In this document: one piece after another, positions 45,603 through 61,378 of the stretch
Position numbering within the stretch: the stretch's first letter is position 1
Layout: each line of letters starts with the position of its first letter
Notes under the pieces: model-generated
What the model was told of the DNA's origin: nothing
Seen by the model: the letters and a program-made list of their open reading frames with translations, nothing else
Database searches by the model: none
Made by a program: the position numbers and the translations under genes
Assembly (NCBI RefSeq): GCF_902500225.1
Contig: NZ_LR722650.1
Location: 1-64,000, forward strand
Reading direction: 5' to 3'
DNA: 64,000 nt
Origin: Buttiauxella massiliensis
GTDB taxonomy: Bacteria; Pseudomonadota; Gammaproteobacteria; Enterobacterales; Enterobacteriaceae

Positions 45603-47195
45603 TTACGCCTGAGCAGTTTGCATCAGATGCGCCATTTCATCTTTCACCGACTGGACCTGCGGACCAATCACCACTTGCAGATTGTGCTGGTTGAGTTGCA
45701 CCACACCGATGGCACGGAGGTTTTTAAGCGCTGCGCTGTCGACCAGAGACATATCTTTCACTGACATACGCAGGCGAGTGATGCAGTTATCGAGAGAAAC
45801 AATATTCTCGGTACCGCCCAGAGCTGCGAGCATGGCTGGAACATTGTAACCCGATTTACCCACCTGGCCGGCAATCGCTTTTTCAGCGCTGGTGGTGTTA
45901 TCGATATCACGACCCGGCGTTTTGATGTTGAAGCGGGTAATGGCAAAACGGAAGATTGTGTAGTATGCCGCAAACCAGATAGCTGCAACCACAGGCACCA
46001 TATACCATTTTGTCGCCAGGCCGTGCAGGATACCGAACACGACGAAGTCGATGATATTGCCATCGGTATTACCGATAGTCACACCCAATACCGCCATCAT
46101 GGTAAAGCCAAGGCCAGTCAACAAAGCGTGGATGACATACAACACAGGAGCGACAAAAAGGAACAGGAATTCCAGAGGCTCAGTCGTTCCACCAACCACG
46201 CAGGCAATCACGCCAGAAATCAGCAGGCCTTTAATTTTGTGACGGTTTTCAGGGCGAGCACAGTGATACATCGCCAGTGCCGCACCAGGTAAACCGCCAA
46301 GGAAGGCAGGCATTTTACCTTGTGACAGGAAGCGGGTCGCACTTTCAGAGAAACCATGAACCGTTGGGCAGCTCAATTGCGCCTGGAAGATAGTCAGTGC
46401 GCCGCTGACGCTATGGCCACAAACATCCATCGTTCCGCCTGCATCAGTAAAGCGAATCAGCGCAACAAGGATGTGGTGCAAACCAAACGGCAGCAACAAG
46501 CGCTCACCAGTACCGAAGATCATCGGCCCAAACATGCCAGCGCTGTTGATCATATTACCCAGTGCGTTGATCCCAGCGGCAAAAACCGGCCAGATTAACG
46601 GGATAACCAGACCAACCAGACCCATCACGACGGTGGTGATGATTGGCACAAAGCGGGTACCACCAAAGAAGGCCAGCGCATCAGGCAAGCGCACGTTGTG
46701 GAAACGCTCATGCAGCAGGAATACAATCACACCGACAATAACTGCACCCAAAATGCCGGTATCAATAGATTGAATACCCAGAATATTTTGGATGTTGTTT
46801 GCTTTCAGGATGGCGGTATCTGTTGTCGGCAAAATGCCTTTAGCCGTCAGCCAGAAGTTCACTGCAAGGTTCATTACCGCGTAACCGACAAAACCGGAAA
46901 ACGCCGCTACACCTTTGTTTTCACGCGCGAGCCCAAGCGGGATTGCGATACAGAACATAATTGGTAGGAAGCTAAACGCAAACGAGCCGACTTTCCCCAT
47001 CCAGGTGAAAATTAGCTGTAAAACAGGATTACCTAATGCTGGAAGCAGAGTCACTACATCGTGGCTACTGAGTGAACTCCCGATACCGAGCATGATGCCG
47101 CAGAACGACAAAAGTGCCACGGGCAACATAAAGGTTTTGCCAAGGTTTTGAAAAAACTCCCAAAGCGTAATTTTTTGTGGTGTATTAGCCGCCAT
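45603..47195 (-). CDS. malX: PTS maltose/glucose-type EIICB component MalX
   Basis: A 530-residue (E. coli 530) PTS permease with an N-terminal EIIC domain of about ten helices (including GGTTEPLEFLFLFVAPVLYV) and a C-terminal EIIB domain with the phosphorylated cysteine in LDNCITRLRMSV. AAGGAG precedes the ATG. It is cotranscribed with malY and divergent from the repressor malI, and two MalI operators lie between them. Confidence 0.95.
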   Translation of the reverse strand: MAANTPQKITLWEFFQNLGKTFMLPVALLSFCGIMLGIGSSLSSHDVVTLLPALGNPVLQLIFTWMGKVGSFAFSFLPIMFCIAIPLGLARENKGVAAFSGFVGYAVMNLAVNFWLTAKGILPTTDTAILKANNIQNILGIQSIDTGILGAVIVGVIVFLLHERFHNVRLPDALAFFGGTRFVPIITTVVMGLVGLVIPLIWPVFAAGINALGNMINSAGMFGPMIFGTGERLLLPFGLHHILVALIRFTDAGGTMDVCGHSVSGALTIFQAQLSCPTVHGFSESATRFLSQGKMPAFLGGLPGAALAMYHCARPENRHKIKGLLISGVIACVVGGTTEPLEFLFLFVAPVLYVIHALLTGLGFTMMAVLGVTIGNTDGNIIDFVVFGILHGLATKWYMVPVVAAIWFAAYYTIFRFAITRFNIKTPGRDIDNTTSAEKAIAGQVGKSGYNVPAMLAALGGTENIVSLDNCITRLRMSVKDMSLVDSAALKNLRAIGVVQLNQHNLQVVIGPQVQSVKDEMAHLMQTAQA

Positions 47196-55813: not shown

Positions 55814-57130
55814 TTAGCGGCTTGGCTTGATAGAGGCCAGTGTCATTGCGGATTCAGTCTTAATTGGCCAGCTAAAGCGAAAACGCGCACCACCCAAGGC
55901 ACCGCTATCAACGACTACAGAACCCTCCATAGCGGTTGCGACAGAATGCACAATTGCCAGCCCAAGGCCACAGCCACCGGTAGCGCGGTCACGGCTTGGG
56001 TCAAGGCGAACAAACGGTTCAAATACTCGTTCGCGTTCTTCTGCGGGTATACCTGGGCCATCGTCTTCCACCTGCAAAATTGCGGTTTGTCCGTCAAGCC
56101 ACAGGCTAATACGTAATTTCTCATTGCTGTAACGCAATGCGTTGTTGACCAGGTTATCTGTCACTCGTTCCATCAGGCGTAGGTCAATCATGCCAAAATT
56201 GCCGCTAGGTGGGGTATCCAGCAAGATATCGAGATGGGGATGAATAATTCTGACGTCGGCAATGTGCTCATCAAGCCAGCGAGGAACGTTGACACTTGCC
56301 AGTTGTAACTCAGTTTGCGGGCGATCCAGACGTGCGTAGGTTAGCAATTCTTCAATTAACGCTTCCAGTTGTCCAATGTCGCGGTTTAGTGCCAGTGATT
56401 CCGCTTCGGTAAGATTATCACTCATCTCCAGGCGATAACGTAAGCGGACTAATGGTGTACGAAGTTCATGAGCAATCCCGTCAATCAGGAGCTTCTTACT
56501 GGCGATTTGCGCATTAATGCTATCGGCCATCTGGTTAAACGCGACGCCCAGGCGCTCAAAACTTGAGGCACTATCGAAATGAATTCGCTCATCCAGATGT
56601 CCTTGCCCCAATCTTTGCGCCGCCGTTTCTAGTTTGAGCATGTCCTTCCAGTGCGGTCGCATCCAGATAAATACGGGGAAGGCGAGGGAGATGGCAATAA
56701 ACGCCATCAGTGCGACGTCCAGTAAGCGCATTTGGTGTAAGAAAAAGAGATACGGTATTGGCCCTACGGCCAGTACATAGTGGCTGCGAGGGATGCGCTG
56801 GATAAATGTATATTCATCGTCGAGAGCGACAATTTCGCCTGCGCGCAGGTGATGCATTGTCATCTCATCAAGCTTGAATTTATCCATTGGCTCAATGTGC
56901 AGCTTAAAGGATAAATTAAGGTCGAGATCTTTAATGGTGCGGTTCCAGTCGCGAGGAGGAATTTCTCGCAACTCGCTACGCATTAAATACAGTGAGCTTT
57001 TCATCAAATCATCTAGCGACTGGCGACCTGCACGTTCGGCGGTGAATTTGTATACCAGTCCAACCAGCATGGTCATCACCAAAAAGCAGACGAACAGTAA
57101 AAGATAGAATTGTATAAATAACTTTTTCAA
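55814..57130 (-). CDS. rstB: Sensor histidine kinase RstB
   Basis: Two-component sensor of 438 residues (E. coli 433). Layout: TM1 (about 4-25), periplasmic sensor (about 30-135), TM2 (about 136-158), HAMP, dimerisation domain with the phospho-His in DGIAHELRTPLVRLRYRLEM, and ATPase domain with NLVNNALRYS, DDGPGI and GCGLGLAI. The only start matching the E. coli N-terminus (MKKLFIQFYLLLFVCF) is a TTG at 57130 with a weak GGTGAT upstream. It is separated from rstA by an inserted EIIC-EAL gene. Confidence 0.95.
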   Translation of the reverse strand: MKKLFIQFYLLLFVCFLVMTMLVGLVYKFTAERAGRQSLDDLMKSSLYLMRSELREIPPRDWNRTIKDLDLNLSFKLHIEPMDKFKLDEMTMHHLRAGEIVALDDEYTFIQRIPRSHYVLAVGPIPYLFFLHQMRLLDVALMAFIAISLAFPVFIWMRPHWKDMLKLETAAQRLGQGHLDERIHFDSASSFERLGVAFNQMADSINAQIASKKLLIDGIAHELRTPLVRLRYRLEMSDNLTEAESLALNRDIGQLEALIEELLTYARLDRPQTELQLASVNVPRWLDEHIADVRIIHPHLDILLDTPPSGNFGMIDLRLMERVTDNLVNNALRYSNEKLRISLWLDGQTAILQVEDDGPGIPAEERERVFEPFVRLDPSRDRATGGCGLGLAIVHSVATAMEGSVVVDSGALGGARFRFSWPIKTESAMTLASIKPSR

Positions 57131-57242
57131 TGAAAATCACCGGGTTATTACGTATCTGAAGACTGGCTCCTGCTTTACAGGAGCGCTACGGGGGGATGGG
57201 CGATGTCATTTTAGAATTTTCTTACCCCAGTTGGCAGGGTAT

Positions 57243-57267
57243 GTAAGCAGGGTTTGCCCCTGCTTAC
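57243..57267. other. Hairpin between the EIIC-EAL gene and rstB
   Basis: A ten-base perfect stem GTAAGCAGGG/CCCTGCTTAC with a five-base loop lies 45-69 bases past the EIIC-EAL stop on the reverse strand. It has no T-run, so partial termination or mRNA processing between the two genes is possible. Confidence 0.5.
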
Positions 57268-57311
57268 AATATCTGGTGTGTGTAAACGCGGTGTTTAATG
57301 ACAATGGTGGC

Positions 57312-59450
57312 TTAAGCTATTGCTTCAACCTCAGGTAGAGAGTGGCCTGGCTGCATTTTCATCTTGTGTTGTTCCGCCAGAAGTTGACACACGACTTCTC
57401 CTGGTAATGGGCGGTGGAACAAGAAACCTTGGCACAATTCAATGCCCGCCATTTTCACTAGTTCTAATTCTTGCTCGGTTTCAACACCTTCGATGAGTAT
57501 TTCACACTGAACCACCATGCATAATTTAACTACCTGTTGCAGGAAGCTAAAGCCATCCGGCTTGGCCAGACCGAGAACCATCGATCTATCGAGCTTTATC
57601 TTGTCTAGTGGGTAGCGGGTCAAATAGTGCAGCGTCGAATATCCCGAACCAAAATCATCAAGGGCGATTTTGATACCTAGACTGCGCAACTTTTCCAACA
57701 CTTCTGCGACACGCACCGGTTCGTGAACCTTTTGTGATTCTGTTATCTCAAACTCAAGATTCCAGCCAGCAGGTAATGGTTTAGTCAGCACTTTATTCAC
57801 AATGTGCAGAAGTCGATAGTCGACCAACGTTTGTGGGGAAATATTGACCGATAGAGTCATGCCCTCTGTTTCAGGCATATTGGCTCGCACATAATCCAGT
57901 GCGTTTTCCATCACCCAGAAATCTATCTCCGGCATCAAACCAGCCCGCTCATAATATTTCAGGAATGTTGGTGGCGTTATCTTTCCGTGGTCATCCTGAT
58001 GGCGGATTAAAACCTCAACGGCAAAGATTTTATTGTCAGATAAACGTAACTGCGGCTGGAAATACAGGATGAATTGACCACTGGTTTGCAGTTTTTCTAT
58101 CTGTCTTTGTGCTTCAAGGTTACTGTTTTCTTCTACAATATGATTGTAGTTAGGCACCATCTCAAAGTTAGTGGGTTGGCTGGTTTTTACCTCACCGGTA
58201 AGTAAGTCCATGTCATTATTTACAGCGCTTTTTTGTTTTAATGTACTTTTGACAAATGGGTAATAAATAGCCACACCTAGAGCGACAAGAGCAATATATA
58301 GCATGACGGCAGCACTGGATTGCCCGCTGGCTAACCACACCTTGATAGGCCCTGGCGTTGACCAACTAACGATTGCGGTAATCCGCGGGATGAAACTATA
58401 GTAAGTCGCACCGTACGCCACGATGTAAGAGACTAACGGGGTCAGGACGAACGGAATAATCATTACCGGGTTGAGAACAATCGGAAAACCAAAAATCAGC
58501 GGTTCGTTGATGTTAAACAATGCCATTGGCCCGGCGATGGTTAACAGGCGGCGGTGCGGACTGTTTTTCTGCATTAAAATGCAGATGACCAAACTCAGTG
58601 TATTTCCTGTACCACCAGAATTACACCACATGTCGTAGAAGACAGGGCTGAGAATATTGAGTGCGCCACGTCCTGAATACCAATCATTAATATTTAATTT
58701 TGCAGCTGCAGTAAAAGCAACATCAATGTCCATAAATAGATAATAGCCATGTAGACCAAAGAACCACGGAACACTGCGCAACAGAACGTATGAAATGCCA
58801 TTTAAAAAATTAGTCGGGTAAAAATAAAGTGACAGTTGGCTGAATAAATTCATTGTATGGTGTAAGCCAGCTTCAGCAGCTAATTTTATAATGCTGCTGA
58901 ATAGGGCGATTACCATTAACGTAACAAAAAACGAAACAATTGTGACGTTATTGTTATCCTTCCATTGGCGAAGTTTTAACAGATTCTTACTGACGATTTC
59001 CTGTAATACATTACCAATTATCCCGGAAGCCAAAGCCATAGGAATGCTGATATCCAGGAAAAATTGTGCGTTATCATCCATGATTCGTCGGAAGATCATC
59101 AACGTACTGATGCTTAACGCGATACAGTATATTTGCGATAGGCGGTTTCTAACGGCCCAGTGGACCGCAACATAGATATTCATCACCAGTGGTGCTAGTG
59201 CTAAGAAGCCAATCTGTAGCTGCATAAACCACAGCGCTGCCTGGTTAAATCCTGCAGTATCACAAAGTACCGACGCAGTGATGACTAAACCACGAACAAT
59301 CGATAAGGGAACAATAGCCATGGTGCTGGCAATAATGGCATGGGCATAACGATTGTTTAATAACTTGATTTGACTGTTATTCAAACGATGCAAAAGATTG
59401 TTTTGTAGCCACACTTTTATCACAAAATTACCTGAAGCAATTACGCTCAT
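57312..59450 (-). CDS. PTS EIIC-like membrane domain fused to an EAL c-di-GMP phosphodiesterase
   Basis: A 712-residue fusion. Residues about 30-405 are a lactose/cellobiose-class EIIC domain: FGLHGYYLFMD, CNSGGTGNTLSL (275-286) and the substrate motif NEPLIFGFPIVLNP (315-328). Residues about 445-695 are an EAL domain with catalytic residues kept: EVL (479-481), N536, E568, DDFGSGYS (598-605), K619, E654 and Q674, so activity is expected. There is no EIIA/EIIB. It splits rstA from rstB. The ATG 59450 lacks a ribosome site; a GTG at 59423 has CAGG seven bases upstream. Confidence 0.9.
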   Translation of the reverse strand: MSVIASGNFVIKVWLQNNLLHRLNNSQIKLLNNRYAHAIIASTMAIVPLSIVRGLVITASVLCDTAGFNQAALWFMQLQIGFLALAPLVMNIYVAVHWAVRNRLSQIYCIALSISTLMIFRRIMDDNAQFFLDISIPMALASGIIGNVLQEIVSKNLLKLRQWKDNNNVTIVSFFVTLMVIALFSSIIKLAAEAGLHHTMNLFSQLSLYFYPTNFLNGISYVLLRSVPWFFGLHGYYLFMDIDVAFTAAAKLNINDWYSGRGALNILSPVFYDMWCNSGGTGNTLSLVICILMQKNSPHRRLLTIAGPMALFNINEPLIFGFPIVLNPVMIIPFVLTPLVSYIVAYGATYYSFIPRITAIVSWSTPGPIKVWLASGQSSAAVMLYIALVALGVAIYYPFVKSTLKQKSAVNNDMDLLTGEVKTSQPTNFEMVPNYNHIVEENSNLEAQRQIEKLQTSGQFILYFQPQLRLSDNKIFAVEVLIRHQDDHGKITPPTFLKYYERAGLMPEIDFWVMENALDYVRANMPETEGMTLSVNISPQTLVDYRLLHIVNKVLTKPLPAGWNLEFEITESQKVHEPVRVAEVLEKLRSLGIKIALDDFGSGYSTLHYLTRYPLDKIKLDRSMVLGLAKPDGFSFLQQVVKLCMVVQCEILIEGVETEQELELVKMAGIELCQGFLFHRPLPGEVVCQLLAEQHKMKMQPGHSLPEVEAIA

Positions 59451-59848
59451 AATGGTGTTTTTAAACAGATAACTGGATTGTCAGAGCGAGTTATCCGGTG
59501 TTACGACAAGGTGAAATTAGCTATTTTTCTACATTCACGGATTTTTGCCCGTGAATGAAGTTTAAAGGTTTTTTTGTTAATTCAGATAAATAACAAAAAG
59601 AACACAAAGTAATAATAAAATAGTTTTTTTGTGAAATATCAGTCTGATTTTTTTTGAAGCAAATCACAGACAGAAATCTATCATATAAGTTAGGTGTATT
59701 TCTATACATAAGTTTACACAATTAAAACCCGTCGGGTGAGTCTGTGAAATATATGAGGAAGGATTTCGAAAGGAAGTAGCTGAATCAAAGTAACAGCTCA
59801 TTAAATGAACGGTTACTTATAGTGTTAAGCAAATAAAATATTGAACAC
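59451..59848. other. AT-rich region between rstA and the EIIC-EAL gene
   Basis: About 400 bases, strongly AT-rich (runs of T and A around 59570-59660), with no supported gene. It should contain the promoter of the EIIC-EAL gene, and includes an RstA-box-like sequence. The composition is unlike the flanking rst genes and fits an insertion boundary. Confidence 0.55.
59705..59718. promoter_or_regulatory. RstA-box-like sequence upstream of the EIIC-EAL gene
   Basis: TACATAAGTTTACA matches TACATNTNGTTACA at ten of twelve defined positions, but in the orientation opposite to that of the downstream gene. A possible -10 (TATGAT, reverse strand, 59685-59680) would put its centre near -38. This is suggestive only. 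Confidence 0.3.
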
Positions 59849-60577
59849 CTAAACTTCGCTTTCCCAGGCATGTGGGGCGAATAAATAGCCTTTATTACGC
59901 ACTGTCTTGATACGAAATGGCTCAGTCGCGCTGTCGTAAAGTTTCTTTCTCAGACGTGAAATAGCGACGTCAACGCTACGGTCCAGACCATCGTAGGTCA
60001 CCCCACGCAAGTTTTTAAGCAGCGCATCACGATCCATAATTTGCCCTGCGTGAGTCGCCAGTTCCCAAAGTAGATCGAAATCAGCAGTGGAGAGTGTGAT
60101 GTTCTCTGAACCAAGGGTGACTTGACGATTGACCGGGTCAATACACAACGCACCAAAGCGCATAGCTTTGTGAGGTTTGAGCGCTGTAGGGCTACTTTCG
60201 ACAGTATGTTGCGCAGAAACGCGTTGGCGTAAATGCAAGCGTAAGCGTGCAAGAAGAACGGCTGGAGGCGTGGTTTTGAGGATATAGTCGTTAGCGCCCA
60301 TCTCCAGTGACAATATGTGGTTCATATCGCTGTCCAGAGAGGTAAGCAGCACAATCGGGCCATCCCACTGAGGACGCAAGTCACGGCACAATGTCATACC
60401 ATCTTTGCCGGGGAGCATGACATCAAGCAACACAAGGTCAGGGCGCTGCTGCTGAATTGTTGCCTCAGCGCAATCACCACGGCTTTCAACAATAACGTCA
60501 ATGTCATGTTTGCCGAGATAAGCGGCGATTAACGCTCCTACTTCAGGATCGTCTTCTACGTATACGATTTTGCTCAT
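59849..60577 (-). CDS. rstA: Response regulator RstA
   Basis: OmpR/PhoB-type regulator of 242 residues (E. coli 239). Receiver: acidic pocket YVEDDPEVG, phospho-acceptor Asp52 (LVLLDVMLPGKDG), Thr in VLLTSLDSD and Lys in DYILKTTPP. The C-terminal winged helix includes LSTADFDLLWELATHAGQIM, GLDRSVDVAISRLRKKL and IKTVRNKGYLFAPHAW. The ATG 60577 matches E. coli MNTIVFVEDD; four extra codons are possible. RstA activates asr and others; a good box exists upstream of asr here. Confidence 0.95.
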   Translation of the reverse strand: MSKIVYVEDDPEVGALIAAYLGKHDIDVIVESRGDCAEATIQQQRPDLVLLDVMLPGKDGMTLCRDLRPQWDGPIVLLTSLDSDMNHILSLEMGANDYILKTTPPAVLLARLRLHLRQRVSAQHTVESSPTALKPHKAMRFGALCIDPVNRQVTLGSENITLSTADFDLLWELATHAGQIMDRDALLKNLRGVTYDGLDRSVDVAISRLRKKLYDSATEPFRIKTVRNKGYLFAPHAWESEV

Positions 60578-60632
60578 AGCCCGATACATTGGATCAAAAA
60601 GAAAACATACACTGCAAAAGGTTTTAATGCCA

Positions 60633-60649
60633 TAAATCGAGGGTAAACA
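60633..60649 (-). promoter_or_regulatory. PhoP-box-like direct repeat upstream of rstA
   Basis: On the reverse strand TGTTTA-CCCTC-GATTTA resembles the PhoP box (T/G)GTTTA-N5-(T/G)GTTTA with one mismatch. E. coli rstA is a PhoPQ target, which supports it, but I see no clear -10 at the expected distance. Confidence 0.4.
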
Positions 60650-60652
60650 AAA

Positions 60653-61378
60653 TTATCTAAGCGGGCGGCCGCCATCAACGCAATGGGTGCGGCCTGTCAC
60701 GTAACTGCTGTTCAACAGATAATTCACTAACCCAACTATTTCTTGTTCACCTGGCGCTATTTTCATCAACGATTTATTCAATGCTTTTTTCCGGTACTCG
60801 CTGTCGTCATGCTCATTGAACATGATCATTGCAGGCGCAATGGCATTCACTTTGACTTCAGGTGCCAGTTTGCGGGCAAACGAGCGAGTCATATTATCAA
60901 GAGCAGCTTTGCTGGCTGCATAGGCAATGTGCTTATCGCTTCCACGTTCTACAACGTAATCGGTGAAATGAATGATATCGGCACTGGAATGCCCACATCC
61001 ACGCAATAGTGGCTCAAGAAGATGATTGAGAAGATAGGGGGTGTTAACGTGAATTTGTAGCATTTCAGCCAGGGTCTGAGCGGGTGACGAGTGAGAGGGC
61101 TCGGGAAGCCAGGCACTGGCATTGTGCAGAATGGCACGCAGGCCATCGCAACACTGTGTGACGTTCAGGGCAAATTGCTCAATACCCTGGTTAGTTGAGA
61201 AATCTGCGAACAGGCAAGTTGCTCCTGCCTGTTCTAGCTCATCTACCGCCGGATAACGCGTACGGTAGCTGATAATGACGGGTTGCTTTTGAGCCAGGAA
61301 GTGTCGCGCCAGTGCCAGGCCAATTCGTTTACCGGCACCAGTAATCAAAATAGGACGGGCGGATGATGTTATCTCCAT
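60653..61378 (-). CDS. folM: Dihydromonapterin reductase FolM
   Basis: Short-chain dehydrogenase of 241 residues (E. coli 240) reducing dihydromonapterin with NADPH. The cofactor motif is LITGAGKRIGLALA, with YRTRYP giving NADPH preference, and the catalytic Tyr-Lys are in IAYAASKAALDNMTR. AAGGAG precedes the ATG at six bases. It lies 75 bases upstream of rstA on the same strand; E. coli ydgC, which sits between them there, is absent. Confidence 0.94.
   Translation of the reverse strand: MEITSSARPILITGAGKRIGLALARHFLAQKQPVIISYRTRYPAVDELEQAGATCLFADFSTNQGIEQFALNVTQCCDGLRAILHNASAWLPEPSHSSPAQTLAEMLQIHVNTPYLLNHLLEPLLRGCGHSSADIIHFTDYVVERGSDKHIAYAASKAALDNMTRSFARKLAPEVKVNAIAPAMIMFNEHDDSEYRKKALNKSLMKIAPGEQEIVGLVNYLLNSSYVTGRTHCVDGGRPLR

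Follow-up and report, generated by a model that had tools for sequence, protein, structure and literature searches.

An EIIC–EAL fusion protein of Buttiauxella as a candidate sugar receptor for c-di-GMP breakdown

A gene of Buttiauxella massiliensis encodes a PTS permease domain (EIIC) joined to an EAL domain in a single protein; it lies in a 64,000-nucleotide stretch of DNA (NZ_LR722650.1, positions 1 to 64,000), referred to here as the window. The most likely explanation for its conservation pattern, with a probability that we put at about 0.52 on sequence comparisons, is that EIIC serves as a sugar-binding receptor without phosphotransfer and sets the activity of the phosphodiesterase. The protein would then be a c-di-GMP phosphodiesterase bound to the membrane, in which a domain that was once a sugar permease has become the sensor. 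An EIIC dimer would bind, in its conserved site, a disaccharide of the PTS type (chitobiose, cellobiose or another beta-glucoside) without phosphorylating it; on binding, the dimer would change in shape or spacing, and a linker of about 38 residues would carry this change to the EAL pair, such that c-di-GMP breakdown goes up or down. We infer sugar binding, the absence of phosphotransfer, the dimeric state and the coupling between EIIC and EAL from the comparisons described below.

The gene was initially read from an ATG as a single stop-free frame of 712 amino acids on the minus strand (57312-59450). This ATG occurs in half of 10 orthologues (5), whereas a GTG nine codons further inside and its preceding AGG are kept in all 10; as a result, translation probably starts at the GTG at 59423 and the protein is probably 703 amino acids long. 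Feature positions are collected in Table 1, with residue numbers according to the ATG reading. Pfam identified PTS_EIIC followed by EAL in one chain in the window protein and in 7 of 7 relatives scanned, and found neither GGDEF nor another sensor domain in the fusion protein. NCBIfam models of EAL proteins matched the C-terminal half, and those of lactose/cellobiose-type IIC permeases matched residues ~170-412. None of the 20 matches reached its curated cut-off, and thus no NCBIfam model of that release claims the fusion.

Table 1. Positions of the fusion gene, its parts and its neighbours in the window
Feature	Position	Strand	Basis
rstA, response regulator, upstream neighbour	59849..60589	-	NF007977, 465.1 bits (cut-off 330)
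EIIC-EAL fusion gene, probable real extent, GTG start, 703 aa	57312..59423	-	start from 10/10 orthologues
EIIC domain, Lac/cellobiose-chitobiose family, residues 17-408 (ATG reading)	58227..59402	-	hhalign and Pfam PTS_EIIC
GLHGY, including H234 (= H250 of 3qnq)	58743..58757	-	alignment to 3qnq
NINEPL, including sugar-site E316 (= E334 of 3qnq)	58497..58514	-	E in 61/62 fusions
EIIC-to-EAL linker, ~residues 409-446, ~38 residues	58113..58226	-	between domain ends
EAL phosphodiesterase domain, residues 450-681	57408..58103	-	Pfam; catalytic residues 62/62
rstB, sensor kinase, downstream neighbour	55814..57130	-	NF007898, 782.1 bits (cut-off 478)

The earlier note had described an intact EIIC carrying NEPLIFG...PIVLNP, and this description held. 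Both motifs are present in the window protein, and Pfam placed PTS_EIIC at residues 44-338 (59.5 bits, cut-off 30.7). A phmmer alignment to 3qnq, a solved ChbC, was limited to residues 170-409; the truncated domain that this coverage might imply was ruled out by profile-profile alignment. When a profile of the fusions was compared by hhalign with six stand-alone EIICs of the same genome, 392 columns were aligned over residues 17-408 (E 5.8e-60); a match to the stand-alone EIICs persisted with the first 165 residues on their own (E 2.5e-11, profile-profile). On these alignments the N-terminal half is also EIIC, and the domain is complete and colinear with known Lac-family members. Its NCBIfam permease scores, at about 141 bits, fall short of the cut-offs of 236 for TIGR00410 (lactose/cellobiose) and 434.45 for TIGR00359 (cellobiose). 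A predicted structure based on 10 close orthologues had a mean pLDDT of 45.7, with EIIC below 50.

Conservation was scored over 62 aligned fusions from 45 genomes, a subset of those found (24 rows from 12 Buttiauxella genomes and 38 rows from 33 others). Residues H234, N315, E316 and W363 of the window protein are the same as in 3qnq and E. coli ChbC; the residues of 3qnq that correspond to E316 and H234, E334 and H250, reportedly contact the sugar in the ChbC structure. The E316 position is glutamate in 61 fusions and aspartate in one. Position 234 is histidine in 40 fusions, including all 12 rst-type orthologues, and asparagine in the other 22. Three further sugar-site positions vary (N is found at 313 in 58 fusions and at 315 in 53, and W at 363 in 58), while GGxG, N327, P333 and P366 are found in all 62 fusions and likewise in all of 14 stand-alone EIICs. 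The latter set consisted of six proteins from this genome, E. coli ChbC, six from five other genomes and one from Niallia taxi. Replacement of H250 by asparagine was considered as proof of lost transport and dropped, as one of the 14 stand-alone EIICs has asparagine as well.

A different result was obtained for a segment between the two halves of EIIC, VPxxVxxSF. All 14 stand-alone EIICs retain its V, P, S and F, whereas none of the 62 fusions has all four: 36 have none of the key letters, 16 have one and 10 have two. The fusions of C. difficile and Tritonibacter likewise lack the full set (0 of 2). Although the corresponding regular expression matches two of the 62 fusions somewhere in EIIC, the aligned place holds at most two of the four letters. 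The segment appears to face the cytosol. It may form part of the dock for EIIB, or else the hinge that joins the dimer half of EIIC to its transport half, and phosphotransfer is not known to be abolished when it is lost. Retention of the sugar site with loss of VPxxVxxSF is the main evidence that EIIC acts as a receptor, and conservation over the 62 fusions favours such a receptor over a phosphotransferring permease as judged from sequence. The fusion resembles the Lac-family EIICs ChbC and CelB (3qnq, E. coli ChbC) in its complete, colinear domain and in its sugar-site His, Asn, Glu and Trp. It differs from them in that no EIIA or EIIB was found alongside, VPxxVxxSF is lost, an EAL domain is attached and NCBIfam permease cut-offs are not reached.

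The absence of PTS partners was searched for with E. coli ChbA and ChbB as queries, i.e. for the Lac type only. The 47 fusion stretches searched, each ~9-19 kb long (L039-L047, L080-L107, L118-L124 and L131-L133, the window's being L080), yielded no frame resembling ChbA or ChbB. In a control with six stand-alone EIICs of this genome, ChbB-like frames were detected beside three and ChbA-like frames beside two. Because the control missed EIIB beside three of the six EIICs, the missing Lac-type EIIA and EIIB constitute moderate evidence. The claim that no EIIB or EIIA lies in or near the gene therefore stood in part: no Lac-type partner was found adjoining, at this partial sensitivity, but malX, an EIICB of the glucose/maltose PTS family with its own EIIB, lies ~10 kb from the fusion (45603-47195). 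Besides malX, no other PTS gene was seen between 40 and 64 kb of the window. The genome has 28 PTS_EIIC matches, three of which are EIIC–EAL fusions.

These results bear on an alternative in which EIIC is a working permease and the trigger, receiving EIIB in trans from another PTS while its transport cycle sets EAL activity. The permease-like sugar-site residues, including H234 and E316, are consistent with transport, and the stand-alone EIICs of the genome with adjoining ChbA/ChbB-like genes could give EIIB. We nonetheless consider a transporting trigger unlikely, as the VPxxVxxSF of all 14 stand-alone EIICs has been lost, no own EIIB was found near the 47 fusion stretches, and the H250 position is replaced in 22 of the 62 fusions, although the window protein is not among these.

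In the C-terminal half, Pfam placed EAL at residues 450-681 (201.5 bits, cut-off 31.3), and the solved chains closest to this half belong to EAL proteins. The seven residues that the earlier note had listed (E479, N536, E568, D598, D599, K619 and E654) are all present, and together with D621, E657 and DDFGxG they are invariant in 62 of 62 aligned fusions. We take these to be the catalytic and metal-binding residues of the domain. On sequence, the EAL half is very likely active as a c-di-GMP phosphodiesterase. In having a full EAL domain with every catalytic residue it is like DibA, MucR and the motility regulator of 4rni; it differs from them in that its sensor is EIIC.

Selection on the two halves was compared in pairs with seven of nine named orthologues, of which six pairs were usable (L039 was excluded). 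Values of dN/dS, which are rough because dS is high and near saturation in most pairs, were 0.035-0.070 for EIIC (6 of 6 usable pairs) and 0.057-0.094 for EAL (4 of 6 pairs, dS being saturated for L043 and L045). The sequences suggest strong purifying selection on both domains, and both halves look to be needed. A pseudogene or a chance fusion was ruled out by conservation, i.e. genus-wide presence, invariant EAL residues and purifying selection.

Another alternative is that EIIC is a membrane anchor and dimeriser only, with the EAL domain always on and controlled by expression. Location between rstA and rstB could provide such control. This alternative is disfavoured because an anchor would not need glutamate in 61 of 62 fusions; the pocket residues are kept over deep divergence (~30% identity), and selection on EIIC is about as strong as that on the enzyme. 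We judge it improbable. For the proposal of a sugar sensor without phosphotransfer, the outcome is thus mixed: conservation in 62 fusions favours it, but transport with EIIB in trans or a mere anchor could still hold.

The gene neighbourhood is as follows. In E. coli K-12 three bases separate rstA and rstB, and in the window (55814-60589) the two are ~2.7 kb apart with the fusion gene inside the gap. The same arrangement was found in 9 of 12 Buttiauxella genomes. The fusion is located elsewhere, not between rstA and rstB, in B. izardii and B. agrestis ATCC 33320, and in B. warmboldiae it is flanked by folM and tus (L042, 4639-9326). No match to rstA or rstB was obtained within that B. warmboldiae stretch, as if the two-component system had been lost and the fusion kept. 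In the window, rstB is read from a TTG and probably needs its own promoter.

Candidate control elements were also searched for around the gene. Shortly after the fusion gene lies an inverted repeat (57242-57268), perfect over 11 bases around a 5-base loop and lacking a T run, which is a possible terminator or protein site. No Rfam match was obtained up to E 1 in 57000-60700. Four promoter-like sites were counted against 6.7 in shuffled sequences, i.e. no excess, and five terminator-like sites against 2.4 (sd 1.7). An RstA box in the gap upstream of the fusion was rejected: scanning with a consensus that we take to be that of the RstA box gave four matches in the window (at most two mismatches), and as 4.31 were expected by shuffling these are attributed to chance.

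The gene had been treated as singular, and this did not survive the survey of its distribution that the earlier note had called for. The fusion is present in 12 of 12 Buttiauxella genomes, this one included, and nine named Buttiauxella loci are 77-94% identical to the window. Because two to four candidates were scored per genome (the two best in the family and order searches, four in the class search), the following counts are lower bounds. With a limit of E 1e-45, at least 6 of 392 genomes of the family match, every one of them Buttiauxella, and the order yields at least 43 of 394 genomes, from 12 of 114 genera, whose matches extend over both parts; at a looser limit at least 5 of 274 genomes of the class match, namely this genome, one with a match reaching EIIC and three with matches to the EAL part only. 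Among the best 25 of at least 5000 matches, plasmid records of Photobacterium, Vibrio, Tritonibacter and Clostridioides difficile matched both parts, and Pfam confirmed both domains in the proteins of C. difficile and of Tritonibacter, an alphaproteobacterium. The C. difficile fusion (L131, 4497-6599) adjoins rlmH in a record deposited as a plasmid; since rlmH is usually chromosomal, the record may be a piece of chromosome. The fusion was unmatched in E. coli genomes by megablast.

Several genomes carry more than one copy. This genome has three, at C19 (the window), C29 and C45, and a relative (G009) has five. In each of two genomes (L082, 5052-11534; L087, 6298-12787) a paralogue has downstream of it a GGDEF–EAL protein, weakly matched by HAMP, as well as two family-3 solute-binding proteins; this arrangement resembles a conserved c-di-GMP operon. 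Downstream of a further paralogue in this genome (L081, 6817-11871) lie a second EAL protein and a protein of the winged-helix type (HTH_46), and three EIIC–EAL fusions are clustered in one genome from another family of the order (L122, 3237-10896). In a tree of the 62 fusions the 12 rst-type genes group together (100/99), and their nearest outside relative is a gene from another family of the order (99/96). In a tree of EIIC (40 of 64 fusion rows), seven stand-alone EIICs group as a single clade (100/99) to which no fusion belongs; beside it stand the fusion from C. difficile and four from a single other family (96/96). This tree is unrooted and is compatible with a single fusion event.

Taking these distributions together with the conserved pocket, a wider proposal can be tentatively made: that a family of permease domains has become dedicated c-di-GMP receptors, with the PTS pocket intact and the phosphotransfer side lost, gating a phosphodiesterase. 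We hold this at somewhat below even odds. A cell with such a receptor would read an extracellular disaccharide without uptake. With similar reserve, the receptor family might be said to have spread across many genera and to have multiplied in Buttiauxella.

No experiment on an EIIC–EAL fusion was found in the full-text literature searched, mostly papers outside subscription; earlier work in C. difficile, whose EAL proteins were reportedly surveyed in PLoS Genet 2011, is possible. The fusion is not described in the available parts of PMC2453333, PMC10100716, PMC1183210, PMC10333796, PMC9756655, PMC10513181, PMC3360785, PMC9371280 or PMC11878068. The kind of fusion is already in print, EIIC being among the domains of c-di-GMP proteins in the accessible part of a 2022 review, where PTS_EIIC is classed among the rare receiver domains of proteins that signal through c-di-GMP and is named in the legend to Fig. 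4 (PMC8846402). The proteins covered there are like ours in combining EIIC with a c-di-GMP enzyme domain, GGDEF, EAL and HD_5 being grouped together in that part of the review (PMC8846402). As far as the same text extends, EIIC is grouped with phosphoreceivers and the sugar example cited is EIIA, not EIIC (PMC8846402); in contrast to this phosphoreceiver reading, the conservation found here favours ligand sensing.

That a PTS component can place an EAL enzyme under sugar control has a precedent in EIIA-Glc, which acts on Vibrio cholerae PdeS (PMC6877527). The systems are alike in linking sugar state to an EAL phosphodiesterase and differ in that PdeS is served by a separate soluble PTS protein (PMC6877527) and the present enzyme has a fused permease domain. 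Indirect control of the fusion by a soluble PTS protein would leave the fused EIIC and its kept pocket unexplained, and we regard it as highly unlikely. In the classical PTS, phosphate is carried on EIIA and EIIB, not on EIIC, which counts against a phosphoreceiver. That EIIC is itself phosphorylated and that its phosphorylation state sets the output, although so worded in the accessible part of the 2022 review (PMC8846402), is the least credible alternative, as the VPxxVxxSF common to stand-alone EIICs is lost here.

What is new here is that the sugar-site glutamate is kept (61/62), that VPxxVxxSF is lost (0/62) and that a search of partial sensitivity revealed no ChbA/ChbB-like partner in 47 fusion stretches. 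The kept pocket and the lost segment provide a precise mutational test. Even if EIIC is not a receptor, the survey shows that the gene is not singular and calls into question the published phosphoreceiver reading (PMC8846402). If EIIC is a receptor, the protein would be a clear example of a transporter turned sensor and would provide a direct, one-protein link from sugar outside the cell to the control of biofilm or motility.
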